47,955 nt of DNA from positions 1 to 47,955 of IMG/VR virus record IMGVR_UViG_3300026320_000011. One strand, written 5' to 3'. Position 1 is the stretch's first letter; every line of letters begins with the position of its first letter. The notes below the pieces were generated by a model. That model was not told the DNA's origin. It saw only the letters and a program-made list of their open reading frames with translations, and did not search any database. Below, piece after piece: positions 4,518 to 36,202 of this stretch. Source of the DNA: a virus. Both the position numbers and the translations under genes were made by a program.

Positions 4518-4960
4518 CCTCCTGGCTTCCTTCCGAAGATCATACCGCAAAGGCCCTGTGGGAATCCGGCAGGACCGCAAGCGAGATCGCGAAGGTCAAC
4601 GGTCGCACGCGGAATGCGGTGATTGGGAGGCTTTCCAGGCTCGGCTGTACGCGCTCCGATCCTGACCGCCGGTCTAATCTGCGCCGTCTCACTGGCGGCC
4701 GCTTTCACAAGCCCAAGGCCCACGCTAAGCCCAAGCCTCCGAAGATCAAAGCCCAGAAACCAGAGCTCGTCATCATGGAAAGCCAACCGCCTCACTACTC
4801 GCTCAATCTCCGCCTTACCGAGCTCCGTCCGCACATGTGTAAGTGGCCTACGGGCTATACGACGGAGTACACGTTTTGCGGAGCGCCGACCGATGGTGTC
4901 TATTGCCAGGCGCATCGGCGTCTCGCGGTGGTTCCGCCGAAGCAGAAGCGTGCTGCGTGA
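4514..4960 (+). CDS. gcrA: GcrA-family cell-cycle regulator
   Basis: 148 residues. The N-terminal helix-turn-helix (AKALWESGRTASEIAKVNG and TRNAVIGRLSRLG, residues 11-43) is the GcrA DNA-binding signature. A basic Lys/Pro linker follows, then the conserved C-terminal CKWPTGY...FCGAPTDGVYCQAHRR. In Caulobacter, GcrA binds sigma70 RNA polymerase and activates promoters carrying methylated GANTC. A phage copy next to two adenine methylases and near a cytosine methylase could redirect host transcription or regulate phage genes by methylation state (inference). The start overlaps the Dam stop (ATGA) and the stop overlaps the GIY-YIG gene start (GTGA). Confidence 0.9.
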   Translation: MTSWLPSEDHTAKALWESGRTASEIAKVNGRTRNAVIGRLSRLGCTRSDPDRRSNLRRLTGGRFHKPKAHAKPKPPKIKAQKPELVIMESQPPHYSLNLRLTELRPHMCKWPTGYTTEYTFCGAPTDGVYCQAHRRLAVVPPKQKRAA

Positions 4961-4992
4961 GGCCGCTCGCCGTCGATCTTTTCTCAGGCCTG
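4957..4992 (+). repeat. Fossil of C5-methylase 5' end
   Basis: Twelve codons that duplicate 5559-5594. Nine of the 12 residues are identical, two are conservative (V/M, V/I) and one differs (S/V). Only three codons are base-identical; most differences are in third positions. The duplicate therefore diverged as coding sequence, or came from a related phage, rather than arising as a recent direct repeat. Confidence 0.85.
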
Positions 4993-5562
4993 GCCTACCT
5001 CATCACCTGCCGTGTGAATGGTCGACAGTACGTCGGGATCACTGGCCGCACGCTTCGTCAACGATGGAAGGAGCATATCTCCGATGCGCTACTTCGCCCG
5101 AAGAGGAGTGCGCTTGGGGCGGCGATCCGCAAATACGGGGCCGATCAATTCGCCATCGAGCCGATCTTCAGCGCGTTTTCGTGGACCGACCTCTGTATTG
5201 CTGAACGGATGCTCATCGAGCAGCATGAGACGCTCAAGCCGCATGGCTACAACTTGTCGCCTGGCGGCGAAGGCAACTTGGGGATCAAGCGCTCAGACGA
5301 GACTAGAGCGCGCCTTCGTGCTGGCCGTCTAGGCAAGCGCCACACTGCTGAGACTAAGGCGCATATGTCTAGCGCGAAGATGGGTATCTCGCAGAACGTG
5401 GGCGCAGCCAACGGTGGCGCCAAGTTGACAGATAGCCAAGCGCGCGAGGCAAAGCGCCTCCTGAGGGCTGGCATTAAGCAGCGTGTCGTCGCTCGTCAGT
5501 TTGGCATCTCCTACACGGCGGCTTGGAAGATCGCGAATGATCTGAAGTGGGCGCACCTATGA
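4957..5562 (+). CDS. GIY-YIG homing endonuclease fused to a C5-methylase start fossil
   Basis: 201 residues from a GTG at 4957 that overlaps the gcrA stop. Residues 1-12 (VRPLAVDLFSGL) are the start of a C5-methylase, nearly the same as the intact one at 5559 (MRPLAIDLFVGL). Straight after comes the GIY-YIG nuclease fold: AYLITCRVNGRQYVGITGRTLRQRWKEHI (the GIY and YIG positions are AYL and YVG, with the catalytic R in TLRQRW) and an E at EQHETLKPHGYN. The middle has NUMOD-like SDETRARLRAGRLGKRHTAETKAHMS, and the C-terminus is an HTH (RVVARQFGISYTAAWKIANDLKWAHL). It is a free-standing mobile endonuclease inserted between gcrA and its target methylase. Confidence 0.9.
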   Translation: MRPLAVDLFSGLAYLITCRVNGRQYVGITGRTLRQRWKEHISDALLRPKRSALGAAIRKYGADQFAIEPIFSAFSWTDLCIAERMLIEQHETLKPHGYNLSPGGEGNLGIKRSDETRARLRAGRLGKRHTAETKAHMSSAKMGISQNVGAANGGAKLTDSQAREAKRLLRAGIKQRVVARQFGISYTAAWKIANDLKWAHL

Positions 5563-6443
5563 GACCGCTGGCTATAGATTTGTTCGTGGGACTCGGCGGT
5601 TGGTCTGCCGGCTTAGTCGCTGCGGGTTGGCGCTCGGTCGGCTTCGATCTCGAAAACATGTTCGAGGTTCTCAACGAGCCAATGCCTGAGCATTTCAGCC
5701 TCGTGATCCAAGACGTTCGGACGCTTCATGGTAGCCAGTTTAAGGACGCGCAATTGCTTGTCGGGTCGAGTCCATGCACCAAGTATTCGTATATGGCTAT
5801 GCCCTGGCAACGCGCGAAAGCACTTGCCGCTTGGTATGAGGAAGAACCCTCGCGCCAAGTCCAGTTGAATGAACTCTTTGACGCTCAGTTTAGGATTCAG
5901 CGCGAAGCCAGCGAGGCTGCTGGCCGACACATTCCGATGGTCGTGGAAAATGTCAGGGGCGCTCAGCGGTGGGTAGGCAGGGCGAGAGCGAATTTCGGGA
6001 GTTACTATCTGTATGGCGACGTGCCGGCGCTCATGCCGATCGTTCAGCGCACCATGAAGAATGTCGACGGCGGCAGCTGGTTCGGTCTGAATCCCGATGG
6101 CTCGCCGGGGGCGCTCAACAACGCGCGCGATGGTCGCAAGACGAACGGCGACATTCCGCACATTCGAACCGGCGCACGTTCCACGCCGCACCTGACCAAC
6201 GCCGCCGAGCATAGGGACGTTAGGGCATTCGATGACGCCTTTGCGCCCTCCGATGGCCGCAAGGGCGCTGGCTACGCCTGGTTCAAAAAGGGGACCGGCG
6301 CATGGGCGCGCGATCCTGTGAGCGCCGCTGGTTCGCATGGCTCGCCGCGCCGCAAGGCCGCTTCCGCCAAGATCGCCAAGATACCGTTCACCCTCGCCCA
6401 TTGGATCGGGAAAACCTGGTTTCCGATGACGGAGGCCGCATGA
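5559..6443 (+). CDS. DNA C5-cytosine methyltransferase
   Basis: 294 residues from the ATG at 5559 (ATGA overlap with the GIY-YIG gene). Motif I is DLFVGLGGWSAGL (residues 7-19, SAM binding). The catalytic Pro-Cys is VGSSPCTKYS with Cys73, and motif VI is MVVENVRG with Glu130. The C-terminal ~150 residues contain many Gly/Asn-rich loops (GGSWFGLNPDGSPGALNN) and a final KIPFTLAHWIGKTWFP. It would methylate cytosine C5, probably for protection against restriction. It is the apparent target of the upstream mobile endonuclease. Confidence 0.88.
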   Translation: MRPLAIDLFVGLGGWSAGLVAAGWRSVGFDLENMFEVLNEPMPEHFSLVIQDVRTLHGSQFKDAQLLVGSSPCTKYSYMAMPWQRAKALAAWYEEEPSRQVQLNELFDAQFRIQREASEAAGRHIPMVVENVRGAQRWVGRARANFGSYYLYGDVPALMPIVQRTMKNVDGGSWFGLNPDGSPGALNNARDGRKTNGDIPHIRTGARSTPHLTNAAEHRDVRAFDDAFAPSDGRKGAGYAWFKKGTGAWARDPVSAAGSHGSPRRKAASAKIAKIPFTLAHWIGKTWFPMTEAA

Positions 6444-10187: not shown

Positions 10188-11078
10188 ATGAACCTCGCCC
10201 GCGTCGGATTCGATATCCACACGCCCCACGACGCCGATACGGTCAACGCCCATATCGCGCACGCCCTCTCGCTTGGCCTGCCCGAAGCCGATGCCGAGCC
10301 GATCCGCAAACTCACCATCATCGCCAATGGTCCCTCGGCCATCAACGCTCCACTTCACGGCGAGACACTTGCCCTCAACGGCGCGATCAATTTGTTCTTC
10401 AACAGCGGCCGTCTTCCGACCTATTGGGCCGCGTGTGATCCGCAAGCCATCGTCGCCGACTTCCTGCCCGCCGATCCGCCACATGGAATCATCTATCTCG
10501 TCGCCTCCAAATGCCACCCTAGCGTCTTCCAGAAGCTCCAGGGCCGCGATGTCAGGCTCTGGCACATAGACGATCATCCGATCCCAGAAAGCCTGCGCAG
10601 CGTCGCCTGTGCGTCATCAGTGACTCTTGTAGCCATGCAGCTCATGCACCAGGCGTTCGGCTATCGCGAGTTCGATACTTACGGCTGGGATGCGTGCCAT
10701 GAAGGGATGATCCATCACGCGTCGGAGCCGTGCCTGGCAGAATATCCCGCTGAGACCACGATTGACCTTGCCGTAGGCGCTGAGCAGATCGAAATTCCCG
10801 CCAGACCCGCAACGCGCCTTGAACGCTCCATGAGCTGGCTCGCGCATCGCATTCAAGCCATCGCCCTTTGGATCGCCTCTCGAAAGCCCATTCCACAGCC
10901 AACCGGAGACTTCCAAGGCGGAAGATGGTTCAAGACTTCAAGGACATGGGCGGCGGAAGCACAGGACGCCTGCGTGCAAATCCATCACGCCGACTACAAG
11001 GTCAACGTCCATGGCGATGGATTGATCAGAGCTATTTTGGAGGCGAAGGGCTTGCATGTCGCGCGGAGAGACGCTTAG
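10188..11078 (+). CDS. DUF115/MAF-like glycosyltransferase-fold protein
   Basis: 296 residues. Residues 40-75 (RKLTIIANGPSAINAPLHGETLALNGAINLFF) give the Rossmann-like nucleotide-binding start of DUF115 proteins, with TYWAACDPQAIVADFL and a later FGYREFDTYGWDACHE, the conserved region that recognises sugar or pterin substrates. Relatives include motility-accessory and surface-sugar proteins. In a phage it could modify a virion protein, or sugars on the cell surface (inference). It follows the fibre-like gene with zero spacing. Its last 47 nt overlap an antisense gene. Confidence 0.7.
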   Translation: MNLARVGFDIHTPHDADTVNAHIAHALSLGLPEADAEPIRKLTIIANGPSAINAPLHGETLALNGAINLFFNSGRLPTYWAACDPQAIVADFLPADPPHGIIYLVASKCHPSVFQKLQGRDVRLWHIDDHPIPESLRSVACASSVTLVAMQLMHQAFGYREFDTYGWDACHEGMIHHASEPCLAEYPAETTIDLAVGAEQIEIPARPATRLERSMSWLAHRIQAIALWIASRKPIPQPTGDFQGGRWFKTSRTWAAEAQDACVQIHHADYKVNVHGDGLIRAILEAKGLHVARRDA

Positions 11079-11298
11079 ACGCACGATACTCCCGCATGTA
11101 AGCCGCTCGATCACGAATAGCCTTTGACGACGCCTCCTCTATCATCGTTTTGAGTTCGGCAATCGCAGGGCGCGTCACAGCGGGAGGCAAGTCAACATCA
11201 ACCGCATCGTTCTCAGGAGGCGCGACTTTCCCCTTCCAGATATGCGACAAGCCCCAATGAGCCTCGCCGCAGACCTTGCACTTCGGAGCCGTAACCAT
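11032..11298 (-). CDS. Small zinc-finger-like protein, antisense to late genes
   Basis: 88 residues from the ATG at 11298 (MVTAPKCKVCGEAHWGLSHIWKGK). The N-terminal C-K-V-C-G-E-A-H-W plus later H is a compact zinc-knuckle pattern common in small phage proteins. The C-terminal half is basic and helical (ELKTMIEEASSKAIRDRAAYMREYRASKR). It runs against the surrounding rightward genes and starts inside the GTAACCA repeat region. An upstream TTG at 11346 would extend it by 16 residues. Confidence 0.65.
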   Translation of the reverse strand: MVTAPKCKVCGEAHWGLSHIWKGKVAPPENDAVDVDLPPAVTRPAIAELKTMIEEASSKAIRDRAAYMREYRASKRLSARHASPSPPK

Positions 11299-11326
11299 GT
11301 GTAACCATCGCACGCCTGCGTAACCA
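11291..11326 (+). repeat. Phased GTAACCA direct repeats
   Basis: GTAACCA occurs at 11291, 11301 and 11320, spaced 10 and 19 bp, so all three lie on nearly the same face of the helix. They lie between the divergent zinc-finger gene and the terminase small-subunit gene. This is the arrangement expected of an operator or a packaging-recognition site. Confidence 0.45.
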
Positions 11327-11408
11327 CGCAAAGCCACATTGCCCAATCTCTAGTGGTGCGCTAGGTTCATGAGGCGGATTACAAAATTAGATACGTGAGT
11401 AGGAAAAA

Positions 11409-11684
11409 TTGGCGCGCGGGGCAAAGCCTGGTGAACGACGCGGCGGCCGCTCAAAAGGAACGCCCAACAAGGCGACCAAAATCCGCGAGGAGCTTATTGC
11501 CGCCTCGAATCTCACGCCGCTGCAATACATGCTGATGGTTCTTGAGTCGCCAGAGGCTTCGGACGCTGACCGCAAATGGGCCGCTCAGAACGCAGCGCCT
11601 TACGTTCATCCCCGCCTCTCCAGCATTGAAGCCAACGTCAAAGGCACGCTCGACATCCGCTCCAAGCTGCTGGAAATGAAATGA
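11409..11684 (+). CDS. terS: Terminase small subunit
   Basis: 91 residues from a TTG at 11409 (AGGAA just upstream). The N-terminus is a basic arm (ARGAKPGERRGGRSKGTPNKATKIREELI), then TPLQYMLMVLESPEASDADRKWAAQNAAPYVHPRLSS, the pattern typical of many phage small terminases (GGR.KGTPNK ... TPLEYML ... AAPYVHPRL). It would bind the packaging site and load the large subunit. It opens the packaging cluster; two small genes separate it from the large subunit. Confidence 0.75.
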   Translation: MARGAKPGERRGGRSKGTPNKATKIREELIAASNLTPLQYMLMVLESPEASDADRKWAAQNAAPYVHPRLSSIEANVKGTLDIRSKLLEMK

Positions 11685-11884
11685 GCGTCCGCATCAGTCT
11701 CTATCCGCTGAGACTATCATCCTCGACAGGAGCCGCCACGCTTTGGGAAATTGATGGCCAACGGGTGATGCTGGAAACGCGGGAGTTTCGGTCACATAAC
11801 TGGATGTACATTCGGCAAAAGACCGTGCGTATTGGCTCTTCAGAGCATGCTCAATTCGTCTCGGCTATCGAGGCTGCCGTATGA
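11681..11884 (+). CDS. Hypothetical small protein
   Basis: 67 residues, probably beta-rich (VRISLYPLRLSSSTGAATLWEIDGQRVMLETREF). Not recognised. ATGA overlaps at both ends tie it to terS and to the next small gene. Confidence 0.65.
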   Translation: MSVRISLYPLRLSSSTGAATLWEIDGQRVMLETREFRSHNWMYIRQKTVRIGSSEHAQFVSAIEAAV

Positions 11885-12099
11885 GCGAAATCGTCCAGCA
11901 TGACTATGATGAACTCGCCGCTGCGATTTGTGCTGATGACTGGGACTGGAATACCATTGTCGCGACGCGCTTAGGCGATAAGTACCGCACCTATGCTAAG
12001 CGCGCCGCAACGGCACTCGGATGTTCTTCAGACGCCACGTTAGCTGAGCAAATCGCCGCTGCGCACCGCGCTATGCGGACAGGGATACGACGGCGATGA
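11881..12099 (+). CDS. Hypothetical small protein
   Basis: 72 residues, helical: IVQHDYDELAAAICADDWDWNTIVATRLGDKYRTYAKRAATALG. Not recognised. The ATGA overlaps with its neighbours place it in the packaging transcript directly before the large terminase. Confidence 0.65.
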   Translation: MSEIVQHDYDELAAAICADDWDWNTIVATRLGDKYRTYAKRAATALGCSSDATLAEQIAAAHRAMRTGIRRR

Positions 12100-13697
12100 G
12101 CGCCGCATACGATTATGTCGATCCCGTAGACGCTCAGATCGTTCGCCTCCGCGACGACTTCGATTTCTTCGCCCGCAACACCCTCAACATCAGGACCAAA
12201 ACCGGCGCGATCGAACGCCTGCATATGAACCGCCTCCAGCGGCACCTGCATGAGAAGCTGGAAGCCCAGCGGCGCAATACAGGTAAGGTCCGCGCCATCG
12301 TCGTCAAAGGTCGTCAAGGCGGATGTTCAACCTACCTCGAAGCCCGCTACTATCATCGAGGCTGGGGCGCGAAGAATGCCCTGCAAATCTTTATCCTCAC
12401 CCACGAACAGCCGGCGACCGAAAACATCTTCGGCATCGCCCAGCGCTATCACGATGGAATGCCCGATGGCCTGCGACCTCCAACCAAAACCGCCAATGCG
12501 AAGGAACTCGCGTTCTCAGACAATGGCGTCGGTTACCAGGTCGCAACAGCCGGAACCAAAGGCATTGGCCGCTCAGCTACGTTCCAGCTCTTTCATGGAT
12601 CGGAGGTGGCTTACTGGCCGAATGCAGAGGATCACATCGCTGGCGTATTTCAAACAGTGGGCGACGCTCCAGGGACTGAGATCATACTCGAATCCACCGC
12701 GAACGGTGTTGGAAACCTTTTCCACCGCCTCGCTATGGCGAGCGTTCGGGGAGCCAACGAATACGAGCTGATCTTCATCCCGTGGTTCTGGTCAGAGGAC
12801 TATGAGCGCCCATGTCCATCAACCTGGACGCCATCGAAGGAATGGCTCTCCTACGGCCAGATTCACAAGCTCCAGTGGGAACAACTCTATTGGGCGTTCA
12901 TCAAAAACCGCGAACTCGCTCAGTCCATCAACGCTGACGAGGACAAGCCCTGTTGGAAGTTCAAGCAGGAATATCCCTCGACGTTCGATGAGGCGTTCCA
13001 GTCCAGCGGCAACAGCTTCATTGAGGCTTCATTCGTTCTAAAGGCCAGACACCCGGAAACAACCATCCTGGGGCGTGGCCCCATCATTCTCGGTATTGAT
13101 CCCGCAGCACAGCGCGACAAGCTCGGCATCATCGATCGGTGTGGCCGCGTCTTAGGCGAACGCATCTGCGAGCGCTGGGAGCCGAGCCCTGACGTTGAAT
13201 ATGTTGGCGCTCGTGTCGCGGCCGTGATCAATCGTGTCCGTCCTGACGCGGTGAACATCGACACATCCGAAGGCTTCGGCGCTGCGCTCTATGCATGGCT
13301 TGTCAATCATGGTCACGAGCGTATCTGCAACGCAGTCAACTTCGGTTCAAGTCCTGTAGGTTGCGGACCTACCGGAGATGAGCTTTACGCCAATCGTCGC
13401 GCCGAGATGTGGGACGTATTTCGCTTCTGGTTTGTGACGCCTGGTGGTGTTAAAATCCCCGATGATGACGGTCTCCACGCCGATATCACCGCTCCTCAGT
13501 GGGGACCGGGCCAAACGCGCAATTCTCCAACGACACACGAGTTGATCATCGAGCCCAAGGAAAAGATCAAGGAACGTCTCGGCGCGTCTCCAGACCTAGG
13601 CGATGCGGCCGCCTTGACCTTTGCCGTGCCTTTCGCGGAAAACATGATGGCTCAAAACCAACCCATGACAAAGCGTCGCACGCGGGGAGGATACTGA
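12096..13697 (+). CDS. terL: Terminase large subunit
   Basis: 533 residues. The Walker A-type motif VKGRQGGCST is at residues 70-79 and the Walker B region FQLFHGSEVAYW at about 163-174. The coupling motif ESTANG follows. The C-terminal RNase H-like nuclease has ILGIDPA (residue ~334), VNIDTSEGFG (~387) and PDLGDAAALTF (~500), giving the three acidic sites. Length and order fit a full headful- or cos-type large terminase, the ATPase motor and DNA cutter of packaging. A Gly-rich Lys/Arg tail ends the protein. The start overlaps the previous gene as ATGA. Confidence 0.95.
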   Translation: MSAAYDYVDPVDAQIVRLRDDFDFFARNTLNIRTKTGAIERLHMNRLQRHLHEKLEAQRRNTGKVRAIVVKGRQGGCSTYLEARYYHRGWGAKNALQIFILTHEQPATENIFGIAQRYHDGMPDGLRPPTKTANAKELAFSDNGVGYQVATAGTKGIGRSATFQLFHGSEVAYWPNAEDHIAGVFQTVGDAPGTEIILESTANGVGNLFHRLAMASVRGANEYELIFIPWFWSEDYERPCPSTWTPSKEWLSYGQIHKLQWEQLYWAFIKNRELAQSINADEDKPCWKFKQEYPSTFDEAFQSSGNSFIEASFVLKARHPETTILGRGPIILGIDPAAQRDKLGIIDRCGRVLGERICERWEPSPDVEYVGARVAAVINRVRPDAVNIDTSEGFGAALYAWLVNHGHERICNAVNFGSSPVGCGPTGDELYANRRAEMWDVFRFWFVTPGGVKIPDDDGLHADITAPQWGPGQTRNSPTTHELIIEPKEKIKERLGASPDLGDAAALTFAVPFAENMMAQNQPMTKRRTRGGY

Positions 13698-14089
13698 TGG
13701 GCGACTGGATCGTGCTGTTTCTGGCAATAGGAGCGCCGCTCAGCTTCATCTGGCTCGTGGTTGCCTGCTTCAGGCTATGGTTTGAGGCTGACAAGGCGAT
13801 CGAGCGCCGTCTAGACGCAAGCCGCGCGCCTTATCCCGGCGAGCCCGTGCATCTGGTTGGCATGAAACCGCCGCCATCCTTGGACAAGGTGACGCCTCGC
13901 GCCCAACAAGTTCTCAGTCTCTACAGGCTTCATAACAGCCCCAATGCTGAGATGGAACGCGTTGTCTTCGACATGTCGGACGACGATATTCATTCGCTGC
14001 CTAGAATGTTAGTTCCCGGCATCCTCGCCCTGCGCGGTATGCTGCGCGAACGTGATCCCTACGTCTGGATTGATCCATGGGCCAGATGA
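13697..14089 (+). CDS. Membrane-anchored hypothetical protein
   Basis: 130 residues. Residues 3-28 (DWIVLFLAIGAPLSFIWLVVACFRLW) form one membrane helix, followed by a soluble, mostly helical domain (KVTPRAQQVLSLYRLHNSPNAEMERVVFDMSDDD). No signal-peptide cleavage site is obvious. Not recognised. Confidence 0.6.
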   Translation: MGDWIVLFLAIGAPLSFIWLVVACFRLWFEADKAIERRLDASRAPYPGEPVHLVGMKPPPSLDKVTPRAQQVLSLYRLHNSPNAEMERVVFDMSDDDIHSLPRMLVPGILALRGMLRERDPYVWIDPWAR

Positions 14090-14340
14090 AGCACTGGTCC
14101 GATTGCGCGGTTCACAATGAGCCAGCCTATCCTGCTGGTGAGTGCAGTTGCGGCGGCTACTACGAGGACGAACGACCCACGAACGAGCAGCGGGCGCTCA
14201 CAGAATGGGAACGTGCCTTCAATAAGTACGTCCCTGAGAAGCCCATTCCCCCCACCTATCAGGATTGGGTTAGAGCCATCCGCGAGCGTAACGAACAAGC
14301 CGCGCAGCCGAAGCGCAAAATGCGACGGAGCGGGTACTGA
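14077..14340 (+). CDS. Hypothetical small Cys/His protein
   Basis: 87 residues. The N-terminal MKHWSDCAVHNEPAYPAGECSCGGYY has DC-x2-H and C-x-CG residues seen in many small phage proteins and may bind a metal. The rest is polar, with a basic C-terminus (PKRKMRRSGY). It overlaps the previous gene by 13 bp and the next by ATGA. Confidence 0.65.
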   Translation: MGQMKHWSDCAVHNEPAYPAGECSCGGYYEDERPTNEQRALTEWERAFNKYVPEKPIPPTYQDWVRAIRERNEQAAQPKRKMRRSGY

Positions 14341-18737: not shown

Positions 18738-18743
18738 GGACAC

Positions 18744-19974: not shown

Positions 19975-20898
19975 ATGGCCGCTGTTATCACCCGCTCATC
20001 GCATCCCGACGCCCTGTGGCCCGGTGTGCTGGAATGGTTCGGTCTCAACTACGATCAGTTCCCCGATGTCTGGCCACAGTTCTTCGACCGCGTCGAGGGC
20101 GAGCTTGCCACCGAGCGTCTGATCGAGGCCACCGGCTTTGGCCTGGCTCGCACGAAGACCGAATCCGCGCCGATCACTTACGACGTTGACGGCGAGGGCT
20201 ACGCGACGCTGGCCACGCCTACGGTCATTGGCCTTGGCTATCAAGTCACCCGCGAGGAGCTTGAGGACAACCTCTACACCGAAGTCTCGATGCCCCGAGC
20301 GGAATCTCTGGCCTTCTCGATGCACACGACTATCGAACTCGTGCATGCCAACATCTTCCTGAACGGCTTTTCCGGCTCCTACAACTATGGCGATGGCCAA
20401 CCGCTGTTCAGCGCCAGCCACCCGACCAAGTCCGGTACGCAGTCGAACCTGCCGACCACGAATGCGAACTTCTCGGAAGCCTCTCTGGAAGACATGATCA
20501 AGCGCATCTACCTGGCGCAGAACTCGCGCGGCCTCCAGATCAACCTGCGCCCCGAGATGATCCAGGTCAGCGCCGCCGACATGTTCAATGCGACCCGCGT
20601 GCTGGAAAGCCAACTGCGCACTTCGACCGCGAACAACGACATCAACGCCGTCAAGCAGATGGGCCTGATGCCCATGGGGGCTGTGGTCAACCCCTATCTG
20701 GGTGTCGAGACTACTCAGGCGTGGTTCGTCCGCACCAGCGTGCAGAAGAACAAGGGGACGCTGAGCATCTGGCGCCGCGATCCTGAACTTGAGAAGTTCA
20801 ACGACTTCGATACTCAGAACGCCAAAAGCGCGAGTACGGCACGATTTGTACCTACGGTTGCAGACTGGCGCTCATGGTTCGGGACCGCAGGTCTTTGA
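19975..20898 (+). CDS. Major capsid protein (Mu gpT-like)
   Basis: 307 residues. The sequence LFSASHPTKSGT near residue 143, with NRSGLQIN-like ARNSRGLQINLRPEM and later GMPMGAVVNPYLG-like segments, resembles the HK97-fold major head proteins of Mu gpT type. The N-terminus AVITRSSHPDALWPGVLEWFGLNYDQFPDVWPQFF is also typical. It is the highest-copy capsid subunit. Its last codons encode EKFNDFDT, which occurs again, recoded, 160 bp downstream beside an HNH gene (20945). The real end is TADWRSWFGTAGL-like (VADWRSWFGTAGL). Confidence 0.88.
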   Translation: MAAVITRSSHPDALWPGVLEWFGLNYDQFPDVWPQFFDRVEGELATERLIEATGFGLARTKTESAPITYDVDGEGYATLATPTVIGLGYQVTREELEDNLYTEVSMPRAESLAFSMHTTIELVHANIFLNGFSGSYNYGDGQPLFSASHPTKSGTQSNLPTTNANFSEASLEDMIKRIYLAQNSRGLQINLRPEMIQVSAADMFNATRVLESQLRTSTANNDINAVKQMGLMPMGAVVNPYLGVETTQAWFVRTSVQKNKGTLSIWRRDPELEKFNDFDTQNAKSASTARFVPTVADWRSWFGTAGL

Positions 20899-20944
20899 TT
20901 TCATTGTTGTTTTTCTGAGCTAGCCTTAGTGGGCAGCAAAGCCA
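20880..20944 (+). terminator. Weak terminator-like site after the capsid gene
   Basis: A short GACC-GCA-GGTC stem overlaps the end of the capsid gene and is followed by the T-rich run TTTGATTTCATTGTTGTTTTT. The stem is only 4-5 bp, so it could attenuate rather than stop transcription between capsid and endonuclease genes. Confidence 0.3.
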
Positions 20945-21022
20945 GAGAAATTCAACGATTTCGATACCGAATGGGCGGACACATGTTGCGAGGAGTGGCG
21001 TAACTGCGGGGTTCTGATATGA
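20945..21022 (+). pseudogene. Fossil of capsid gene 3' end
   Basis: An open 25-codon stretch with stop at 21020-21022 begins EKFNDFDT, the same eight residues as the capsid protein at 20791-20814. Four codons differ, all at the third base. Later, GAGTGGCG resembles the capsid gene's GACTGGCG (Asp-Trp-Arg), but the part between is shorter and unmatched, so this looks like a deleted, decayed second copy of the capsid gene's end. No start codon drives it. Confidence 0.7.
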
Positions 21023-21813
21023 TCGTCTACATGAGCGATTACAAACCACCCCGCAAAACGTGCTCCATCGAAGGATGCAGCAGGCGCCATTTCGGCCACG
21101 GCCTGTGCGGTATGCACTATCAGCGCCTTCAAGTGCATGGCGACGTTAATCACGAACGCCCGCGTTGGCATGGTGGTCGGCGGAAGGGCCATCCCCTACA
21201 TAATAAGTGGTGTATGGTTCGGGCGCGCATTGGCGGGTATGATCCGGCGTGGAACGATTTTGATCGTTTTCTTACTGATGTTGGTGAGCGTCCGGATAAC
21301 TGTGCGCTGGTCGCAGCCGATCCTCGCGAGCCAATAGGACCATCCAATTTCGCATGGCGACTGATCGGGAAGGGCCATCCAAAACCGAACCGCAAGAGCA
21401 TGAAGTGCAGTGTGGCGGACTGCGGCCGGCCATCACGCGCAATTGGTTTGTGCGCTCTCCACTATGATCGATGGATCAAGAGGGGCTCGTTAGAAGCGAG
21501 AACGCCGACCGGAACCGATCCGGCGAAAATGGCTGCTAAAATTTATCGCACGCGGCTGCGCCAATATGGACTGACGGCAGAGACTTATGACGCGCTGAAT
21601 GAGACGCAGGGCGGGAAGTGCGACATGTGCGGCGGCACAAATCCCAATGGGAAGCGCCTTTCAATTGATCATGACCATGATACTGGCGTCGTTCGCGCGC
21701 TTCTTTGCGCATGTTGCAATACGGGCATTGGCATGTTCGGTGAAAGCGAGGACCGTCTTCGCAAGGCTATTGCTTACCTGCGGCGCCACAGTAAGGCGAG
21801 CGTGGCGGCATGA
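21019..21813 (+). CDS. HNH homing endonuclease (endonuclease VII-like)
   Basis: 264 residues; ATG at 21019 (a second ATG at 21031). Two zinc-finger-like repeats, CSIEGCSRRHFGHGLCGMHYQRL (N-terminal) and CSVADCGRPSRAIGLCALHYDRW (residues ~131-153), precede the nuclease: CDMCGGTNPNGKRLSIDHDHDTGVVRALLCACCNTGIGMF, the His-Me finger of recombination endonuclease VII (DHDH, C-C-N). This is a free-standing mobile gene within the head operon. It lies right after the capsid fossil and its stop overlaps the next gene (ATGA). Confidence 0.88.
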   Translation: MIVYMSDYKPPRKTCSIEGCSRRHFGHGLCGMHYQRLQVHGDVNHERPRWHGGRRKGHPLHNKWCMVRARIGGYDPAWNDFDRFLTDVGERPDNCALVAADPREPIGPSNFAWRLIGKGHPKPNRKSMKCSVADCGRPSRAIGLCALHYDRWIKRGSLEARTPTGTDPAKMAAKIYRTRLRQYGLTAETYDALNETQGGKCDMCGGTNPNGKRLSIDHDHDTGVVRALLCACCNTGIGMFGESEDRLRKAIAYLRRHSKASVAA

Positions 21814-26217: not shown

Positions 26218-28143
26218 ATGGCCGATCTTCCTTCCAACCTGCCTCCGATACGCCTTCCGGTCTTAGAAAATAATAACTTCACGCTGCCCTGGTTTCGGAC
26301 CTTTCAGGGCTTCTCCCGTAGCGCAGCCAATGGCATCACCCAGCTTGTCGGTCCCGTAACCGCAATAGGCCCAGGCATTGCCACAACGGCAATCACGCCA
26401 ACAGGTGTCACGCCAGGCAGTTACACCAACGCCAACATCACTGTGCTTGCGGATGGCCGACTTGCCTTCGCATCCAGCGGAACTGGAGGAGGCGGCTCAT
26501 CGAGCGCGCTTGAGCTGGTGGCGCTGTCTTTTCTGGATGGCTCTCTCAACGGCGCACCTGGAGCGGCGGGCCTTCGCGGTCCCCCTGGTGAGGATGGGCT
26601 TGACGGACAGGATGGACCTCCAGGACCGCCAGGACCAGCCGGCACTGGCTCAACGGGAGCGACTGGCGCGCAAGGCCCCATCGGTCCTCCAGGCTATTCA
26701 GGCGAGGATGGAGACGACGGCGCGCAAGGTCCGCCTGGGGCTGCGGGTACTGCCGGTGCGACAGGCGCTACGGGCGCGACAGGTCCAGCGGGACCGCCGG
26801 GATTCGCGATCGATGGCCTCGACGGCGAAGAAGGAATGCCGATTCCGGGGCTTCCTGGGGCGACTGGAGCCACGGGTGCAACGGGAGCCGCTGGGGCCAA
26901 TGGCGCATTTGGCGCGGATGGTGCGGATGGCGAGGAAGGCCCGATGGGGCCAGCATATGGTCCCGGCCAAGGAACAGGATTGTCGGTGCTTGGCGTATCG
27001 GGGAACGTAGCCACCAACCGAGCGGATATTACTGCGAGCGTCGCGGGATCAATTTTCACTAACAACGGCACGGCCTTAGTATGGTCCAGCCCTGCCGTTT
27101 CCGGAGCCTTGGTGTACGAAGACGGCACGGTTCCGGGAGGCAACACAGTCGCCTCTACGGCGGCGGAAACGGCGTTTACGTCCTCCTATACGATTCCGGC
27201 GAACACGCTTGCCGTGGGATCGGTGATCCGCGTCAAGCTATATGGCCTGTATTCTACAGCCCTCACGCCGCCGACCTTAGTGGCGAAGTTAAAGGCTGGT
27301 GGAACGACCCTGCTGACTACAGGCTCTTTGACCACTATAGGAAGTCTCACCAATACGGGCTGGTGGGCCGAGGGCGCTCTGATCGTCACTGCTATCGGCG
27401 CTTCAGGAACTATCGAGGCTCAGGGTTACGCGGAGTTCGCCACGGCAGCGACGACGGGCCTTTCTGTCAATCTGACCAATACCGCCGCGATCGGTTCTAT
27501 CGACACCACAGCCACACAAGCGCTGACCGTGACCGTTCAATGGGGCACATCGTCGGCCTCAAACACCATCACCCTTCGAGAGATGACGGTGGATATCCAG
27601 GCTCCGGGGAGCATTGGAGCTGGGGCCATTAGCGCAGAAGCTTTGATCTCCGAAGTTGTGACAGCCGGGTCACAAGCGAGCGTCACCTATTCTTCTATTC
27701 CCGCGACTTGGCGAGATATTCGCGTTGTGGTGCGAGGTAGAGGCGACACAGCCGCCGTCAACTCCAATCTGCTCCTTCAATTTAACGGAGATACCGGGGC
27801 CAACTACGATGAGCAGCATGTCTTAGGGCAAGCCGCTGCTGCGGGCGGCGGTATCACCCTGGCGGGCACATCTATCTTCATAGGACAGCTTCCGGCCGCC
27901 ACCGCTACGGCAAACGTGGCTGGAGGTGGCGAGGCGACAATTCTCGACTATCGGGGGACAACCTTCCAGAAGGCCGGCTACTATCAGGAGAACAGTAAAA
28001 ACGGCACCACGACAACCACCGTGCCTGCATGGACCGGGATTTTTAACTGGCGCTCGACGGCCGCTATTACCTCTGTAAAGGTGTTCCTCGCCGCCGGTAA
28101 CTTCGTGAACAACTCAGTAGTTAGTCTATATGGACGCTACTAA
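26218..28143 (+). CDS. Collagen-like tail fibre
   Basis: 641 residues. An N-terminal domain of ~110 residues (NNNFTLPWFRTFQGFSRSAANGITQL) precedes a collagen-like region at about residues 114-245 of Gly-X-Y repeats (PGPPGPAGTGSTGATGAQG; GPPGAAGTAGATGATGATG), broken by non-repeat inserts such as FAIDGLDGEEGMPIPG. The remaining ~390 residues are beta-rich, ending FLAAGNFVNNSVVSLYGRY, a likely receptor-binding C-terminal domain. Phage collagen-like stretches build trimeric fibre shafts. It abuts the gp10-like gene with no spacing. Confidence 0.85.
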   Translation: MADLPSNLPPIRLPVLENNNFTLPWFRTFQGFSRSAANGITQLVGPVTAIGPGIATTAITPTGVTPGSYTNANITVLADGRLAFASSGTGGGGSSSALELVALSFLDGSLNGAPGAAGLRGPPGEDGLDGQDGPPGPPGPAGTGSTGATGAQGPIGPPGYSGEDGDDGAQGPPGAAGTAGATGATGATGPAGPPGFAIDGLDGEEGMPIPGLPGATGATGATGAAGANGAFGADGADGEEGPMGPAYGPGQGTGLSVLGVSGNVATNRADITASVAGSIFTNNGTALVWSSPAVSGALVYEDGTVPGGNTVASTAAETAFTSSYTIPANTLAVGSVIRVKLYGLYSTALTPPTLVAKLKAGGTTLLTTGSLTTIGSLTNTGWWAEGALIVTAIGASGTIEAQGYAEFATAATTGLSVNLTNTAAIGSIDTTATQALTVTVQWGTSSASNTITLREMTVDIQAPGSIGAGAISAEALISEVVTAGSQASVTYSSIPATWRDIRVVVRGRGDTAAVNSNLLLQFNGDTGANYDEQHVLGQAAAAGGGITLAGTSIFIGQLPAATATANVAGGGEATILDYRGTTFQKAGYYQENSKNGTTTTTVPAWTGIFNWRSTAAITSVKVFLAAGNFVNNSVVSLYGRY

Positions 28144-30398: not shown

Positions 30399-32062
30399 TG
30401 GGCGATACCATCAACATCCCTTGGCAGATCGCCAATACCCAAAGAGACCCGCTGCAAACTGCGCAGGACAGCGCCCTGAAGGGCCTGGACATCGGCCAAC
30501 GGCGCGCAGGCATCAACGCCTTGCGCGGAATCAACTTCGATGATCCATCCACTGTCAACCGTGCCCTGAACGCCAGTGCGCAGGCAGGTCTCCTCGATCA
30601 AGCCAACGCCGTCACCACGGTCGGCCTGGCGCGCCGCCAAGCCCAGACCACAAGAAGCGCGCTCGACCTCGCCGACGAAGGCATCCAGGCCGAAGCTGAC
30701 AAGACGCCAGCGCATCTGAAGCTAATGCAGGACGGGGCCAATGCGGTCCATACGCTGCTCGGGATCACCGATCCAGCCGAACGCAAGGCCCAGGCCGACA
30801 AATACGCCCAGGAGTTCCAGCAACGCCACGTTCCGCCACAAAACATCGCCGAGATCATCGGAGACCTGTCAGATGATGGCCTCAAGGCCCACGGAGCCTT
30901 CCTGACAGCCGCCGCGCAAGGCCAGGAACTCCCAGACCATCCGACAGGTTATGGAGCCTCACGGACGATTCTGGATGATCCTATCTATGCGCAGGCTCGT
31001 GATCAACTTACAGGACCGTTTGCTCATCCCATCGTCCAAGCCGCCTTGGCCCGAGGGGGCCTTGACGTTGGTCCCGGTCTTGAGCGTGCGGCGTCCATTA
31101 CGTCTCCCATGCGGGCCGCCACCGTCGCGGCTCAAGTGCCGCCGCCTATCGCCGGAACCACCAGCGATATTGTCGGAGGCCGCACGGCAGGCGTCGTGCC
31201 CATTGCAGGCGCTCCAGCGGCTATGCAGAGCGCAGCAGGCGCAACGGCGGCGGGTGAGGCTGCCGGACATGCGCCATCATCGGTCGGCACATTCAATCTT
31301 CCAGGTGGCGGTTCTATCCAAGGAACATGGCAGCCAGGACCAGATGGCAACTATTCATTCCATCCCGTAACGAGCGCTCAAGGCGCACCGGCCGGTGTGG
31401 GACAGGCTCCGTCACCGCAGCAAGCAGCCGTCTATCAGGCTTCTGGCAACCAACTCGCCAATGACAAGATTCTTGCCTCAACGGCCGCGACGCAGATGGT
31501 TCCTCTCCGCAAGGTCTACGATCTGTTGCGGACAACCAACATTGGCCCCGGTACGGAAGAGACCAACCAACTCCGTTCCTTCATAGTCTCTCAACTTCCC
31601 GCGCTCGCCAGCATCATCCCCGGCGGCATCGACGCCCGCCGCGTGCAATCCGCTAACTATGACGAACTGCGCAAATACATGGTGCAGATTGCGGGTGCGC
31701 AAGCGGCTCAATATGGACAGGGAACCAACGAAAAACTGGCCATCGCCGCATCAGGAAATCCGAATATCCACATGACCGGCCTCGCCGCGCGGGATGTGGT
31801 CAGAATGAACATCGCTCTCCTACGCGCCCAGCAAGCCAAGGTGCTCGGCTACAATGGACCGCCCGAGGGCTATGCGGACTATGCGACGCACTACGCGAAG
31901 AACGTCGATCCTCGCGCCTTCATGCTTGATCTTCTGACTAAGCAGGAACGGTCCAAGGTCATGTCCACCATCACGACATCAGCCGATCGCAAGGCATTCC
32001 TGGCCGGGAAGGAAGCTGCTGAATCATCGGGCATCTTCCGAGAGTCGGACATTCCCCAATGA
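30398..32062 (+). CDS. P22 gp20-like DNA ejection protein
   Basis: 554 residues, helical in the N-terminal half (ALKGLDIGQRRAGINALRGINFDDPSTVNRALNASAQAG...RSALDLADEGIQAEADKTPAHLKLMQDGANAV), then a Pro/Gly/Ser-rich linker (VGTFNLPGGGSIQGTWQPGPDGNYSFHPV) and a helical C-terminal domain. Size and place match the middle ejection protein of P22-like phages. No enzymatic motif seen. The 3' end overlaps the gp16-like gene by 4 bp. Confidence 0.7.
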   Translation: MGDTINIPWQIANTQRDPLQTAQDSALKGLDIGQRRAGINALRGINFDDPSTVNRALNASAQAGLLDQANAVTTVGLARRQAQTTRSALDLADEGIQAEADKTPAHLKLMQDGANAVHTLLGITDPAERKAQADKYAQEFQQRHVPPQNIAEIIGDLSDDGLKAHGAFLTAAAQGQELPDHPTGYGASRTILDDPIYAQARDQLTGPFAHPIVQAALARGGLDVGPGLERAASITSPMRAATVAAQVPPPIAGTTSDIVGGRTAGVVPIAGAPAAMQSAAGATAAGEAAGHAPSSVGTFNLPGGGSIQGTWQPGPDGNYSFHPVTSAQGAPAGVGQAPSPQQAAVYQASGNQLANDKILASTAATQMVPLRKVYDLLRTTNIGPGTEETNQLRSFIVSQLPALASIIPGGIDARRVQSANYDELRKYMVQIAGAQAAQYGQGTNEKLAIAASGNPNIHMTGLAARDVVRMNIALLRAQQAKVLGYNGPPEGYADYATHYAKNVDPRAFMLDLLTKQERSKVMSTITTSADRKAFLAGKEAAESSGIFRESDIPQ

Positions 32063-34623
32063 GCGGGATGACCGATGACGAGCTGTTCGGCCGTAAGCCG
32101 ATCGCCGAGGACGTAGCGCCCAAAGTCGCGCGTCCCACTATTGCACCCTTACCTCAGGAAGCCGATCCCAACTTGATTGCTCGGGCCATGGTGGCGGAAG
32201 GTGATCCGACCCCCGAAAGCTGGCGCAACGTTGGTGGTGCGGTTCTCAATCGCATGGCCAAGTCAGGAAAGACAGCCTCGCAAATTCTCTCCGAACCAGG
32301 GCAGTTCGAGACCTTCTCCAACGGCAGGATTCAAGGCGTCAATACGCAGTCGCCACAATATCAACAGGCGCTTTCCATCGCTCAGGGCATGAAAGCGGGC
32401 GATACGCCATACGATAGCTTTTTCCAGCCTAACATCGTGAAGCAAAGGGGCACGAAACCGCCATTCGATCCCTCGCAAGGAACGATGGTCGGCACACAGC
32501 TTTTCGGGAATGCGTATGGCGGAACCGATGCCAACTCAGACTGGACGCCCGCAGACCAAGCCAAATGGGACCAGTTGCAAGTCCCCGGCGCTACGACACC
32601 CGAGGGTCGGAAGACCGGGGCTGGCGGTCTTCTCGTTAAAGGCCAGAAAGCCACGGCTGCGCAGGATGCTTTTGTGGAAACCACACAGAAGAAAGGACGA
32701 AAGTTCGATCCCAACGCCATCGGCGGGACCGCTGATCTTCCCTACTTCCTCCAGAAAGGTGGCGTTATCCCCGCCACGCCCGGCGCGCATTACGTCGATC
32801 TGGACGGGATCGAACATGTTGTGCCCGGAGGGGCACTAGGTTTCGCAAAGAGTGCTGGCGAAGGTGCATTGCAGGGCATTGGCCCTGATGTGTTGCACAG
32901 CGCACTGAAACTCACCGGCGGGGCTCTGGCCACGGGTGGGGCTGGTCCATTCGCTGCCGCTCCAGCCACGCCGACTAGTGATCAGCAGATGCGCCAAGCG
33001 GCCATGGAAGGCGCTGGCCAGCAAGCGCACGACTACGCCACGGCCCACATGGGAGACGTTGCCGCGCAGGGCGGTCGCTTCCTTGGACAAGCCGTTCCCG
33101 CCACTGTTGCCGCTGGCGCTATTCCTGAAATCGAGTTGCCTGGTGCGGTCGGTGCGGGAGCGATGGGTGTGGCTTCTCGCGTCGCCGGCAGAACCGTCAC
33201 TAATGCCCTCAGGGGCGTTGCTGGTGTCACGCCCACGGTTGGGCCTACCAATGCGCCTGTCGTCAGACAATTGGCTGAGGGAGGCATCGCCGGGGCTGTT
33301 CTGCCGGGATTTGCCCGAAAGGCGGGAGAGACCGGCGCGGCGCTCGGAGGGACTCTTCACGGCATTGTCGAGCCTCTGACCGAAACAGGGCGGGGGAAAA
33401 TCGCTGACAGGATGATCCGAGCCCGAGCGGCCGGAAGCAACATCAGCAATCCGGACCTTACAGAATATATCCCTGGCTCCAGGCCCACGACCGCCGAGGC
33501 TTTGGGGAATACGGGCCTCGCCATAGCCCAGCGCTCGATGACCAATACGCCCGCCTTTACCGAGCTTGGCAGGGCGAATGCAGAGGCACGAGAGGCAATC
33601 GTTTCCGGCCTCAAGGGCGACACAGCGAGACGAGACGCCTTGGTTGCGGCACGGGATGCTGAAGCCGATCCTCTGCTTGAGCGAGCCTTCGCAAATCCGC
33701 AGCCCGTGGATTCATCGCCTGTCGTCGCGAAGATCGATGAAATCCTAGCCAGCAAGGCAGGACAGCGTGACGCGGTACGAGGGCCGTTAGAGGAAGTACG
33801 GGCCAAGCTGGATGGCCAGACCGATCCTGAACAACTCTACGGCATTCGCCAGCACATCGGAGACATCCTAGGCCCGCTTGCGAGAGGAACGGCTAAGGAT
33901 GCCCGCGCCGCTTCAGCCCAACTGCAATCGGTCATGCACACGCTCGACCCAGTGATCGAGCAGGGCGCGCCGGGCTTCAAGGACTATCTGGAACGCTTCT
34001 CCACGCTCTCTAACCCCATCAACGAGCACGATTATCTCCAGGGCTTGAACCTCACCACACCCACGGGCCAGGTCACTGCCAATCAAGTCGGCTCTGCAAT
34101 CCGCACCATCAACAAGCAGCGCAACATGGGCGGCGTGAACAGCGCCAAGGCCATCAGCGATGAGACGTTAATGACGCTCCAGAATCTCCGCGACGACTTG
34201 GCGCGTCAGAGCCAAAATCAACTAGGACGGGGACAAGGTTCAGATTCGACACAGAAGCTTCTTGAGAACGCGATGACGGGTACGACAGCTATGCACCCGC
34301 TGCTAGGGGCTGGCGTAGCGGCGGCTGGCCTGACGCATAATCCGGTGTTCGGGGCCATCGCGGGACTTGGGCTCGTTCATAGGGCAGCAGCGGAAGTTGG
34401 CCGTGGCGGCATCATGCGAGCCTACGAAAGCCGCCTGCTCAATCCCGATCTAGGGCTTGCGGCTCTCCAGTCGCAACAGCGGGGGCTTCCTAACGCTCTC
34501 CAAGGCATCGGGAATCTCGCGCGCCCAACCGGCGTCCCACTCTCTGCGCTCGGCGTCGATTGGCTCATGAACCGTCAGCCGGGTATCCAGTCCACGTCGC
34601 TTGTAGGGACCAATTCCCAATAG
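32059..34623 (+). CDS. P22 gp16-like ejection protein with SleB-type hydrolase domain
   Basis: 854 residues. Residues ~38-160 match the cell-wall hydrolase SleB fold: NLIARAMVAEGDPTPESWRNVGGAVLNRMAKSGKTASQILSEPGQFETFSNGRIQ...PYDSFFQPNIVK, in which the AEG Glu is the catalytic residue of this lytic-transglycosylase-like family. The rest is a long helical, Ala/Gly-rich body (LGFAKSAGEGALQGIG; VGAGAMGVASRVAGRTV with possible membrane-active segments). It probably opens peptidoglycan during DNA delivery. The combination of a large ejection protein with SleB is uncommon relative to P22 itself. Confidence 0.75.
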   Translation: MSGMTDDELFGRKPIAEDVAPKVARPTIAPLPQEADPNLIARAMVAEGDPTPESWRNVGGAVLNRMAKSGKTASQILSEPGQFETFSNGRIQGVNTQSPQYQQALSIAQGMKAGDTPYDSFFQPNIVKQRGTKPPFDPSQGTMVGTQLFGNAYGGTDANSDWTPADQAKWDQLQVPGATTPEGRKTGAGGLLVKGQKATAAQDAFVETTQKKGRKFDPNAIGGTADLPYFLQKGGVIPATPGAHYVDLDGIEHVVPGGALGFAKSAGEGALQGIGPDVLHSALKLTGGALATGGAGPFAAAPATPTSDQQMRQAAMEGAGQQAHDYATAHMGDVAAQGGRFLGQAVPATVAAGAIPEIELPGAVGAGAMGVASRVAGRTVTNALRGVAGVTPTVGPTNAPVVRQLAEGGIAGAVLPGFARKAGETGAALGGTLHGIVEPLTETGRGKIADRMIRARAAGSNISNPDLTEYIPGSRPTTAEALGNTGLAIAQRSMTNTPAFTELGRANAEAREAIVSGLKGDTARRDALVAARDAEADPLLERAFANPQPVDSSPVVAKIDEILASKAGQRDAVRGPLEEVRAKLDGQTDPEQLYGIRQHIGDILGPLARGTAKDARAASAQLQSVMHTLDPVIEQGAPGFKDYLERFSTLSNPINEHDYLQGLNLTTPTGQVTANQVGSAIRTINKQRNMGGVNSAKAISDETLMTLQNLRDDLARQSQNQLGRGQGSDSTQKLLENAMTGTTAMHPLLGAGVAAAGLTHNPVFGAIAGLGLVHRAAAEVGRGGIMRAYESRLLNPDLGLAALQSQQRGLPNALQGIGNLARPTGVPLSALGVDWLMNRQPGIQSTSLVGTNSQ

Positions 34624-34714
34624 GCCCATGAAGAAATGAACCACCATCAACAGCGCGACAATCGAGAGCAAATGTTGCATCCTTCAAACCTAGTCCTCCG
34701 ATAGGAAAAAGCAA

Positions 34715-34726
34715 TTGGCCAGTGGC
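34715..34726 (+). repeat. Fossil of tail-fibre gene start
   Basis: Twelve bases (TTG GCC AGT GGC) matching the first four codons of the fibre gene at 35327 (Met-Ala-Ser-Gly) with only third-base differences. They end exactly at the antisense stop of the HNH gene at 34727. AGGAAAAA, a ribosome-site-like sequence, lies before them. Confidence 0.55.
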
Positions 34727-35314
34727 CTACAAAAGCAGACCGAGAGACTGAGCATGATCAATGGGATCATGGGCGCTCTTAGCGCAGTTGCATGGCTTGC
34801 AAAGCATCTGGGCATTCATCGGATCATGTGCGCCGCCACGACTAAGGGGCACGATGTGATCCAATTCTGGACGCTCCATCTTGCGCCGACACAACGCGCA
34901 ACGGCCTTTTTGACGAGCCATGAGATCACGCACATCAGCGGCGGTTATGCCTCGCCCGGGAGCGGCATGTTGGCGCGCTCGACGTGCTCGCTTATAGGCC
35001 GCTCGCCGATCCCGATTTTTCTCCTCCCATCGCTTTCCAGATTCCTTACGACGCTCTGGATTGTCGCGATTCCAAGCCAGCGATGCGGCTCGCAATTTTT
35101 CTCTGCGCCTGTCCGCAGATCGCTTATCACCAACTCGTTTGCGTTCTGGATTAGCGGCTCGCCATGCAACGCGTGAAGCTCTCACACGCTCTGGATTTTC
35201 GGCTTTCCAGCGCGCCATCGATGCCGCACATTGATCTTTGTGCTCGGCATAGTATCGAGCATTATATTCTTTCTTCCGGCGCTTCTTTTCATCTTGGTCA
35301 ATGTCTGATGACAA
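34727..35314 (-). CDS. HNH endonuclease inserted antisense at the fibre gene start
   Basis: 195 residues. The N-terminal ~120 residues are a basic helical repeat region with ENPERxR units (KAENPERVRASRVAWRAANPERKRVGDKR; RDNPERRKESGKRW), a pattern of phage homing HNH proteins. The nuclease is RCALCRRKMERPELDHIVPLSRGGAHDPMNAQMLCKPCNCAKSAHDP (C-x2-C, DH, N, H). It is encoded opposite to the late genes, between the gp16-like gene and a tail-fibre gene whose start it apparently disrupted; the first four codons of that gene lie just beyond its stop. Confidence 0.85.
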   Translation of the reverse strand: MSSDIDQDEKKRRKKEYNARYYAEHKDQCAASMARWKAENPERVRASRVAWRAANPERKRVGDKRSADRRREKLRAASLAWNRDNPERRKESGKRWEEKNRDRRAAYKRARRARQHAAPGRGITAADVRDLMARQKGRCALCRRKMERPELDHIVPLSRGGAHDPMNAQMLCKPCNCAKSAHDPIDHAQSLGLLL

Positions 35315-35326
35315 AAGGGTTCGACC

Positions 35327-36202
35327 TTGGCTAGTGGAAGGCTCATTTCACCAATAACAGAACCGATATTGGACACAAGCGGCGTGCCGATCTCAGGCGC
35401 GACACTGACCGTCTATCGAGCCGGAACGCTGACGCTTGCATCCCTGTTCGCTGATGCCGCGCTTGGAACCGGCATCGCCAACCCGCAGACTTCGGATAGT
35501 GCAGGGCGGTTCTATTCGCAAAGTACGGTGGTCTGGGCTTCGGATGCATATGCCTATGATCTGTTAGTGGACTTCGGTTCGTACACCGAGACCTACGAAG
35601 ATATCTATGTCCTCGGCGCAGCTACGAACATCACGGGCCTAGCGCCTCTAAATAGTCCCGCTTTTACTGGCGTTCCGACTGCTCCCACACCGGCAACGAA
35701 CGACAACAGCCAAAAGCTCGCGACGACCGGCTATGTTCAGGCTCAGGGCTATGCGGTTCTTGCTTCGCCAGCCTTCACGGGCACGCCTACGGCTCCCACG
35801 GCAGCAGCTAACACCAACACCACACAGCTTGCCACAACCGCTTTCGTGCGGACACAGATCAGCACGGCCAGCGCAGCGAATACATCCATCTCAGCCAACT
35901 TGACGCTGACCAGCGCAGCCAATGGCACATTCGCGCATGGGCTGGGAGCCAATCCGACGAATGTTGAGGTCTTCCTGATCTGCACATCATCCCTTGCGCC
36001 GTATACGACTGGTGATTTGATCAAAATGGATGGCAATCAAGGCGCGTCGGCGTTCTACGGCGTGGCGGCATGGATCGTCGCGGACTCAACCTCAGTGAAG
36101 TATCAGGTCGGGGCTAACGGTGTAGTGCTACCTAATTCATCCGGCGTTGGCATGTTCGTTACTTCGGCAAACTTCGCAATCAAAATCCGCGCGTGGCTCT
36201 AA
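35327..36202 (+). CDS. Tail fibre/receptor-binding protein
   Basis: 291 residues from a TTG at 35327 (AAAGGG upstream). The N-terminal domain includes SPITEPILDTSGVPISGATLTVYRAGTLTLASLFADAALGTGIANPQTSDSAGRFYSQ. This is followed by two tandem phage-fibre repeats (LNSPAFTGVPTAPTPATNDNSQKLATTGYVQAQ; LASPAFTGTPTAPTAAANTNTTQLATTAFVRTQ), the classical T4/lambdoid side-fibre repeat ending in a coiled-coil-forming motif. The C-terminal ~110 residues are a distinct beta domain (FAHGLGANPTNVEVFLICTSSLAPYTTG). The start is a reconstituted copy beside an HNH gene. Confidence 0.8.
   Translation: MASGRLISPITEPILDTSGVPISGATLTVYRAGTLTLASLFADAALGTGIANPQTSDSAGRFYSQSTVVWASDAYAYDLLVDFGSYTETYEDIYVLGAATNITGLAPLNSPAFTGVPTAPTPATNDNSQKLATTGYVQAQGYAVLASPAFTGTPTAPTAAANTNTTQLATTAFVRTQISTASAANTSISANLTLTSAANGTFAHGLGANPTNVEVFLICTSSLAPYTTGDLIKMDGNQGASAFYGVAAWIVADSTSVKYQVGANGVVLPNSSGVGMFVTSANFAIKIRAWL

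Follow-up and report, generated by a model that had tools for sequence, protein, structure and literature searches.

Given that several endonuclease genes in this phage adjoin what appear to be second copies of a neighbouring gene end, the question arises whether such genes travel as cassettes that bring along a replacement for the end of the gene they enter. The window analysed here, IMG/VR record IMGVR_UViG_3300026320_000011 with its full length of 47,955 bases, contains three candidate loci (A, B and C), and an earlier note had proposed for all of them that a partial copy of the gene terminus keeps the protein sequence while its codons are changed. Specifically, gene ends were scored against the sequences flanking each endonuclease, with the other genes of the window (49) and 300 shuffled peptides as controls. 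Duplicates of this kind were recovered at loci A and B, while the copies at locus C have only LASG in common. A single pattern for the three loci did not emerge either, as at B the duplicated fragment separates the capsid gene from the endonuclease and that at C amounts to a few codons; the window holds one clear (A), one odd (B) and one marginal (C) example. The group I intron and intein arrangements do not fit, since each target gene is an intact ORF without interruption, its own start adjoining the endonuclease.

The features of locus A are as follows.

4514..4960, + strand: GcrA-like gene 5' of locus A, from ORF and sequence
4957..4992, + strand: scrap A, VRPLAVDLFSGL (12 codons), the putative former start of the methyltransferase and now the endonuclease N-terminus (score 48)
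4957..5562, + strand: ORF of the homing-type endonuclease (GIY-YIG/NUMOD3), with scrap A in frame at its start (Pfam PF01541, 1.1e-9; PF07460)
5559..5594, + strand: putative replacement methyltransferase start, with an ATGA overlap with the endonuclease stop, from sequence
5559..6443, + strand: C-5 cytosine methyltransferase gene, target A (PF00145, 1.6e-6)

The duplicate proposed at 4957-5594 is well above its controls: VRPLAVDLFSGL, which opens the endonuclease, and MRPLAIDLFVGL, which opens the methyltransferase at 5559, align with a score of 48, compared with 28 for the best of the 49 other genes and with none of 300 shuffles reaching 48, while at the nucleotide level scrap and working start agree at 23/36 positions. 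The enzyme itself has the marks of a GIY-YIG homing endonuclease, with PF01541 and PF07460 above or near their cut-offs and a match to phrog_314 (2.4e-28). Its ordinary relatives start straight at the GIY-YIG domain, and an N-terminal extension is found only in the fused forms. We read this extension as the old methyltransferase start because most phage methyltransferase homologues among the matches listed begin with [RK]PLAIDLF.GL or near it; the scrap also fits the start consensus of about 45 phage relatives. The GTG start (4957) of this captured beginning is overlapped by the TGA stop of the GcrA-like gene. A close empty-site relative of the methyltransferase was not found, the best relative being about 53% identical and none turning up in the relatives' records, so that the history of locus A is reconstructed from the other cases described below.

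At locus B, the target is the major capsid gene.

19975..20898, + strand: major capsid gene, target B, whose last codon windows diverge from relatives more than its body
20945..21017, + strand: scrap B, a decayed repeat of the capsid gene's 3' end (EKFNDFDTE...), lying on the side of the endonuclease that faces the capsid gene (score 47)
21019..21813, + strand: endonuclease VII-like HNH gene (PF02945, 2.8e-23), missing in relatives

Here too the duplicate holds up, the pair EKFNDFDTE/EKFNDFDTQ scoring 47, a value reached by 0/49 genes and 1/300 shuffles; past these nine residues the scrap is decayed, with internal deletions. It begins about 50 nt past the capsid stop and precedes the endonuclease VII-like gene, whose own end forms an ATGA-type overlap with the next gene at 21810. 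The arrangement is also carried by IMG/VR record L002, since that record is 100% identical to the window over 10624-21860. In relatives with 80-85% identical capsids, the capsid stop is followed by the next gene, with neither endonuclease nor second copy. A scan with the capsid gave one contig with an empty site B; this contig, L361 (CAITXU010000126.1), is filed in a Verrucomicrobia MAG, and it is probably a virus contig since its capsid is 83% identical to that of this phage. The working capsid end has a nucleotide identity of 0.57-0.73 to relatives, compared with 0.72-0.80 among the relatives themselves, while most of the body is not more diverged; this hints that the working end may be the newcomer. 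Unlike in the yeast WHO elements discussed below, the fragment lies not beyond the endonuclease but between it and the capsid stop, and the presence of scrap and working end on one side of the enzyme is not what the cassette model would lead one to expect. Such an order could arise if a further exchange followed the arrival of the endonuclease or if a second endonuclease gene was lost. We regard locus B as a related product of another kind, namely a partial duplicate at a recombination boundary beside an endonuclease. A search with its endonuclease VII returned the same phage and one distant relative only, and no donor.

Locus C involves a tail gene and an endonuclease in the opposite orientation.

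34699..34726, + strand: scrap C, a short ribosome-binding leader and putative tail gene start (GATAGGA..TTGGCCAGTGG), protein match not significant
34727..35314, - strand: HNH endonuclease between scrap C and the tail gene (PF14279, 6.7e-10; PF01844, 1.1e-9)
35327..36202, + strand: tail gene, target C, with a working TTG start and empty sites in three relatives

While TTGGCCAGTGG directly precedes the HNH ORF and TTGGCTAGTGG opens the tail gene, we rejected the locus as a protein-level duplicate: the residues in common are LASG only, 183/300 shuffles do as well, and the statement that most of the protein sequence is preserved does not apply here. At the DNA level, TTGGCTAGTGG with at most one mismatch occurs at just two sites in the window, 34715 and 35327, although two matches were also obtained in 7/100 whole-window shuffles. 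In three relatives, the upstream gene stops just before MASGRL of the tail gene, which corresponds to the empty site. We take the copy at 34715 for a short native start remnant because it has GATAGGA and the start region in common with one of these empty-site relatives; with low confidence, scrap C may be a native start of very small extent, and the locus as a whole is probably an abbreviated end-replacing cassette. A search with its HNH protein gave no match and no donor. Just upstream, a 76 aa antisense ORF with a hydrophobic N-terminal stretch (34450-34680, - strand) overlaps the end of gene 32059-34623.

Are such arrangements found beyond this phage? The survey of phage endonuclease genes that the earlier note had suggested was started from an alignment of seven GIY-YIG enzymes, which led to 80 IMG/VR loci; once the window and further loci were added, 75 distinct genes resulted. 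In 53-58 GIY-YIG genes, the sequence 5' of the endonuclease was checked for similarity to the beginning of the next gene downstream, with mismatched pairs as the null, and the comparison was repeated over 162 endonuclease ORFs of all the assembled loci. For GIY-YIG genes at 5' ends, the excess is clear: scores of at least 40 were reached in 3/53 genes, with 0.00 expected (609 mismatched pairs, best score 34), and the chance of at least three cases at a score of at least 45 is about 1e-6. These outliers, which are flush with the start codon, are locus A of the window, L216 (VTAYYNEHE/MTAYYNEHD) and L217 (MAYSDTYGQ/MSYSDTYGQ), the latter two with the layout of locus A. The same layout was found by reading in L271 (MATSGTVSTTI/MSTSGTVSTTV), where the downstream gene runs off the contig, and a five-codon version (MTPLA/MKPLA) precedes a methyltransferase of locus A's family in L058. 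The end-replacing form is a minority, about 5% of the sampled GIY-YIG genes. HNH genes yielded one clear case, L233, at a 3' end, while the comparison of upstream-gene ends with the 3' flanks of GIY-YIG genes gave no excess of high scores.

In the arrangement that recurs, the endonuclease has an intact target gene on one side and a piece of that gene's end on the other, as in locus A, L216, L217, L271 and the Streptococcus phage Javan406, and in L233 at the 3' end. In locus A, L217, L216, L271, L058 and Javan406, the scrap is the in-frame start of the endonuclease ORF, and the endonuclease stop overlaps the new start in all six of these 5' cases, by 4 nt in four and by 14 and 25 nt in the others. 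The notion of the old end as a fossil therefore needs qualification: it is native where comparators exist, yet it is often not a passive relic but the beginning of the endonuclease itself.

Other matches fell outside this arrangement. Those in L211, L204, L254 and L261 lie off the gene start or in a doubtful frame and were judged to be artefacts. No scrap was found in Luminis or in VD13 and EH802P1, whose GIY-YIG genes lie inside split terminase genes and are probably in introns, and no significant duplicate in the Vibrio Ackermannviridae terminase with its in-frame GIY-YIG. In two Vibrio phages (L189, MG592621; L191, OZ196357), the N-terminal half of the terminase large subunit continues in frame into a GIY-YIG domain, and there is a second overlapping ORF, terminase-like in MG592621; this resembles a fragmented gene more than an end replacement.

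We then focused on the cases with empty-site relatives, where old and new ends can be told apart directly: in L217, L233 and Javan406, the fragment is native and the working end foreign. The target in L217 is a tail-adaptor gene with many close empty-site relatives. Its scrap is identical at 27/27 nt to the empty-site start of many of them, and the DNA 5' of the insertion is collinear with L278 (95.7% over 989 nt), stopping exactly at the last base of the scrap. The working start, by comparison with the 29 closest relatives, is identical at 19/27 positions at most, while the relatives among themselves agree at 22 or more. The foreign tract is about 60 nt long and differs mostly at synonymous positions; beyond it the gene is nearly identical to its closest relatives. 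With the scrap and the DNA leading up to it being native, the old end stayed in place, and its role in the working gene was taken over by a short stretch of foreign DNA that spans the insertion point. A donor of this tract was searched for and not found. The endonucleases of L217 and L271 are 66% identical and their target tail-adaptor genes 45%, which agrees with transfer between lineages.

L233 is the mirror case, at the 3' end of an endolysin gene. The C-terminus of its HNH ORF is the native endolysin C-terminus FKSLVDCPHFERN, the ORF end reading FKSLVDCPHFERNVG; at the empty site in MW202545, the endolysin ends FKSLVDCPHFERNFT and is followed by the homologous next gene, while the endolysin of L233 now ends VTLVDTPHFSRGPDGKPEFRRVGS. 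In Javan406 (L193, MK448930, 2938-3974), the first part of the endonuclease ORF is native terS sequence, the leader plus 19 codons (87 nt, 92% identical to Javan633). A different type of terS lies 3' of the endonuclease, and its last codons and the downstream genes are again Javan633-like; Pfam assigns Terminase_2 to the native terS of Javan633 and not to the new terS of Javan406. The proposal that the cassette moves with its own version of the target end is thereby borne out for a class of elements, with GIY-YIG at a 5' end (L217), HNH at a 3' end (L233) and terS at its 5' end (Javan406), although loci A, B and C do not follow it uniformly.

Taken together, we consider it likely that locus A is an end-replacing homing cassette, and that such cassettes recur among a minority of phage endonuclease genes. 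Judging from the sequences, the endonuclease would cut the target gene near one end, and repair from an endonuclease-bearing phage would copy in the endonuclease together with the donor's version of the gene end. On the gene side, a crossover would lead into the native body of the gene; on the far side, the DNA would be joined at the break or close to it, so that the native end up to the insertion point would stay behind. In the 5' form, the endonuclease ORF would take this native end, including its ribosome-binding site, as its own beginning, while the target gene would restart at a new start codon overlapping the endonuclease stop, so that both the target protein and translational coupling would be kept. 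The new end would probably be immune to cutting because its codons differ from those of the cut allele. It seems to us an even bet that phages harbour a general class of such cassettes, natural counterparts of home-and-rescue gene drives, in which the start or end of the target is taken over by the endonuclease as its own and the replacement end both evades cleavage and has the enzyme's stop codon superimposed on it.

Alternatively, endonuclease genes might simply mark ordinary mosaic boundaries, the duplicates being by-products of illegitimate or one-sided recombination without a role in homing or immunity. Phage nuclease genes at exchange boundaries are documented (PMC10448857), and this account suits locus B, with its scrap on the gene side, Javan406, in which most of terS was swapped for an unrelated N-terminal part, and the codon divergence, as ordinary saturation. 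It sits poorly, however, with scraps that begin exactly at the target's start codon and continue in frame into the endonuclease, with a stop/start overlap in 6/6 5' cases, and with a replaced tract in L217 so short and spanning the insertion point, and we regard it as unlikely. The gene end might also have been duplicated in tandem in one and the same phage, the endonuclease inserting later between the copies; this would likewise yield two copies flanking the endonuclease, but the copies differ as much as independent codons do. In L217, moreover, the scrap shows no difference from close relatives, to which the subsequent 300 nt of the gene are up to about 94% identical; with scrap and gene body both matching relatives, the working start must have come from elsewhere and not from a recent local duplication, which makes this account very improbable. 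Chance similarity between flank peptides and gene ends does describe locus C at the protein level; it is refuted at A and B, which lie above their nulls, and the scraps of L217, L233 and Javan406 match empty-site alleles at the DNA level, so that as an overall explanation its probability is close to negligible.

The codon changes do not demonstrate that the new ends were recoded, as had been proposed. Across six pairs, identical residues keep their codon at 17/41 positions, with 16.5 expected for independent codons; what was called recoding is thus the saturation seen in any diverged allele. Likewise, the codon change in L217 is ordinary for alleles of that amino acid identity, and neither the six pairs nor the L217 alleles support selection for recoding beyond ordinary divergence. 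Selection to escape cutting may possibly lie behind the codon change, and the stop/start overlap could be a second cause of change at these codons. In L217, the changed Ser-4 codon (AGT) and the following GA supply the endonuclease stop codon. Codon 2 is Ala in the scrap and Ser in the working start of both L217 and L271.

The idea as such is not new, since the same logic already appears in yeast WHO elements (PMC7282813) and in fungal mitochondrial mobile ORFs (PMC3630166). WHO elements, which target FBA1 in yeasts of the genera Torulaspora and Lachancea, comprise an endonuclease and a replacement gene end, and beyond the endonuclease a fragment of the native end persists (Coughlan et al. 2020, eLife, PMC7282813); the target gene is chimeric, and allele-specific cutting has been published (PMC7282813). 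The phage cases have in common with them the endonuclease with its replacement end, the fragment on the far side and the chimeric target. WHO elements differ, however, in occupying a nuclear yeast gene, in replacing the 3' end only and in using an intein/zinc-finger (HO/VDE-like) endonuclease, and their fragments of about 400 bp are not described as part of the endonuclease ORF (PMC7282813), whereas 5-19 native codons are fused in phages, where GIY-YIG or HNH enzymes also replace 5' ends. The elements found here do not belong to the WHO family proper, with its intein-like endonuclease, zinc finger and FBA1 target, as all enzymes of the window and survey are GIY-YIG or HNH. The fungal mobile ORFs, known from atp6, atp9, cox2 and nad3 of Glomus and atp6 of Allomyces (Beaudet et al. 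2013, PMC3630166), resemble the phage cases in being free-standing LAGLIDADG or GIY-YIG ORFs with a foreign C-terminus and the native C-terminus left downstream, the atp6 copies being 63.5% identical in nucleotides and 91% in amino acids; unlike them, they are mitochondrial and affect 3' ends only, and the consulted sections report no fusion of native end and endonuclease (PMC3630166). Free-standing phage homing endonucleases such as T4 Seg/Mob likewise lie beside essential genes, with exchange between related phages and flank co-conversion, while the sections consulted mention no native gene end that was kept and joined to the endonuclease (PMC10448857). A report of end replacement in phages was not found in the open-access literature, subscription journals being largely outside that search; as far as searched, the occurrence in phages, the 5' form and the in-frame capture of the target's start are new.

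If our reading is correct, a homing class described for a few fungal genes extends to phages, where it is quickly testable in the laboratory. The phage cassettes would be natural examples of a selfish nuclease that enters an essential gene without breaking it. They would also explain phage gene ends whose history is unlike that of their bodies, and the sequence signature would lead to an endonuclease's target gene and insertion site without experiments.

In the remainder of the window, the same duplicate test gave nothing above the null in the flanks of the endonucleases at 42230, 43781 and 45184, in keeping with the exclusion of these three by the earlier note, nor any flank duplicate for the ORF at 46564. 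Among the tail genes, a protein encoded at 26218-28143 (+ strand) has a collagen-like Gly-X-Y stretch.
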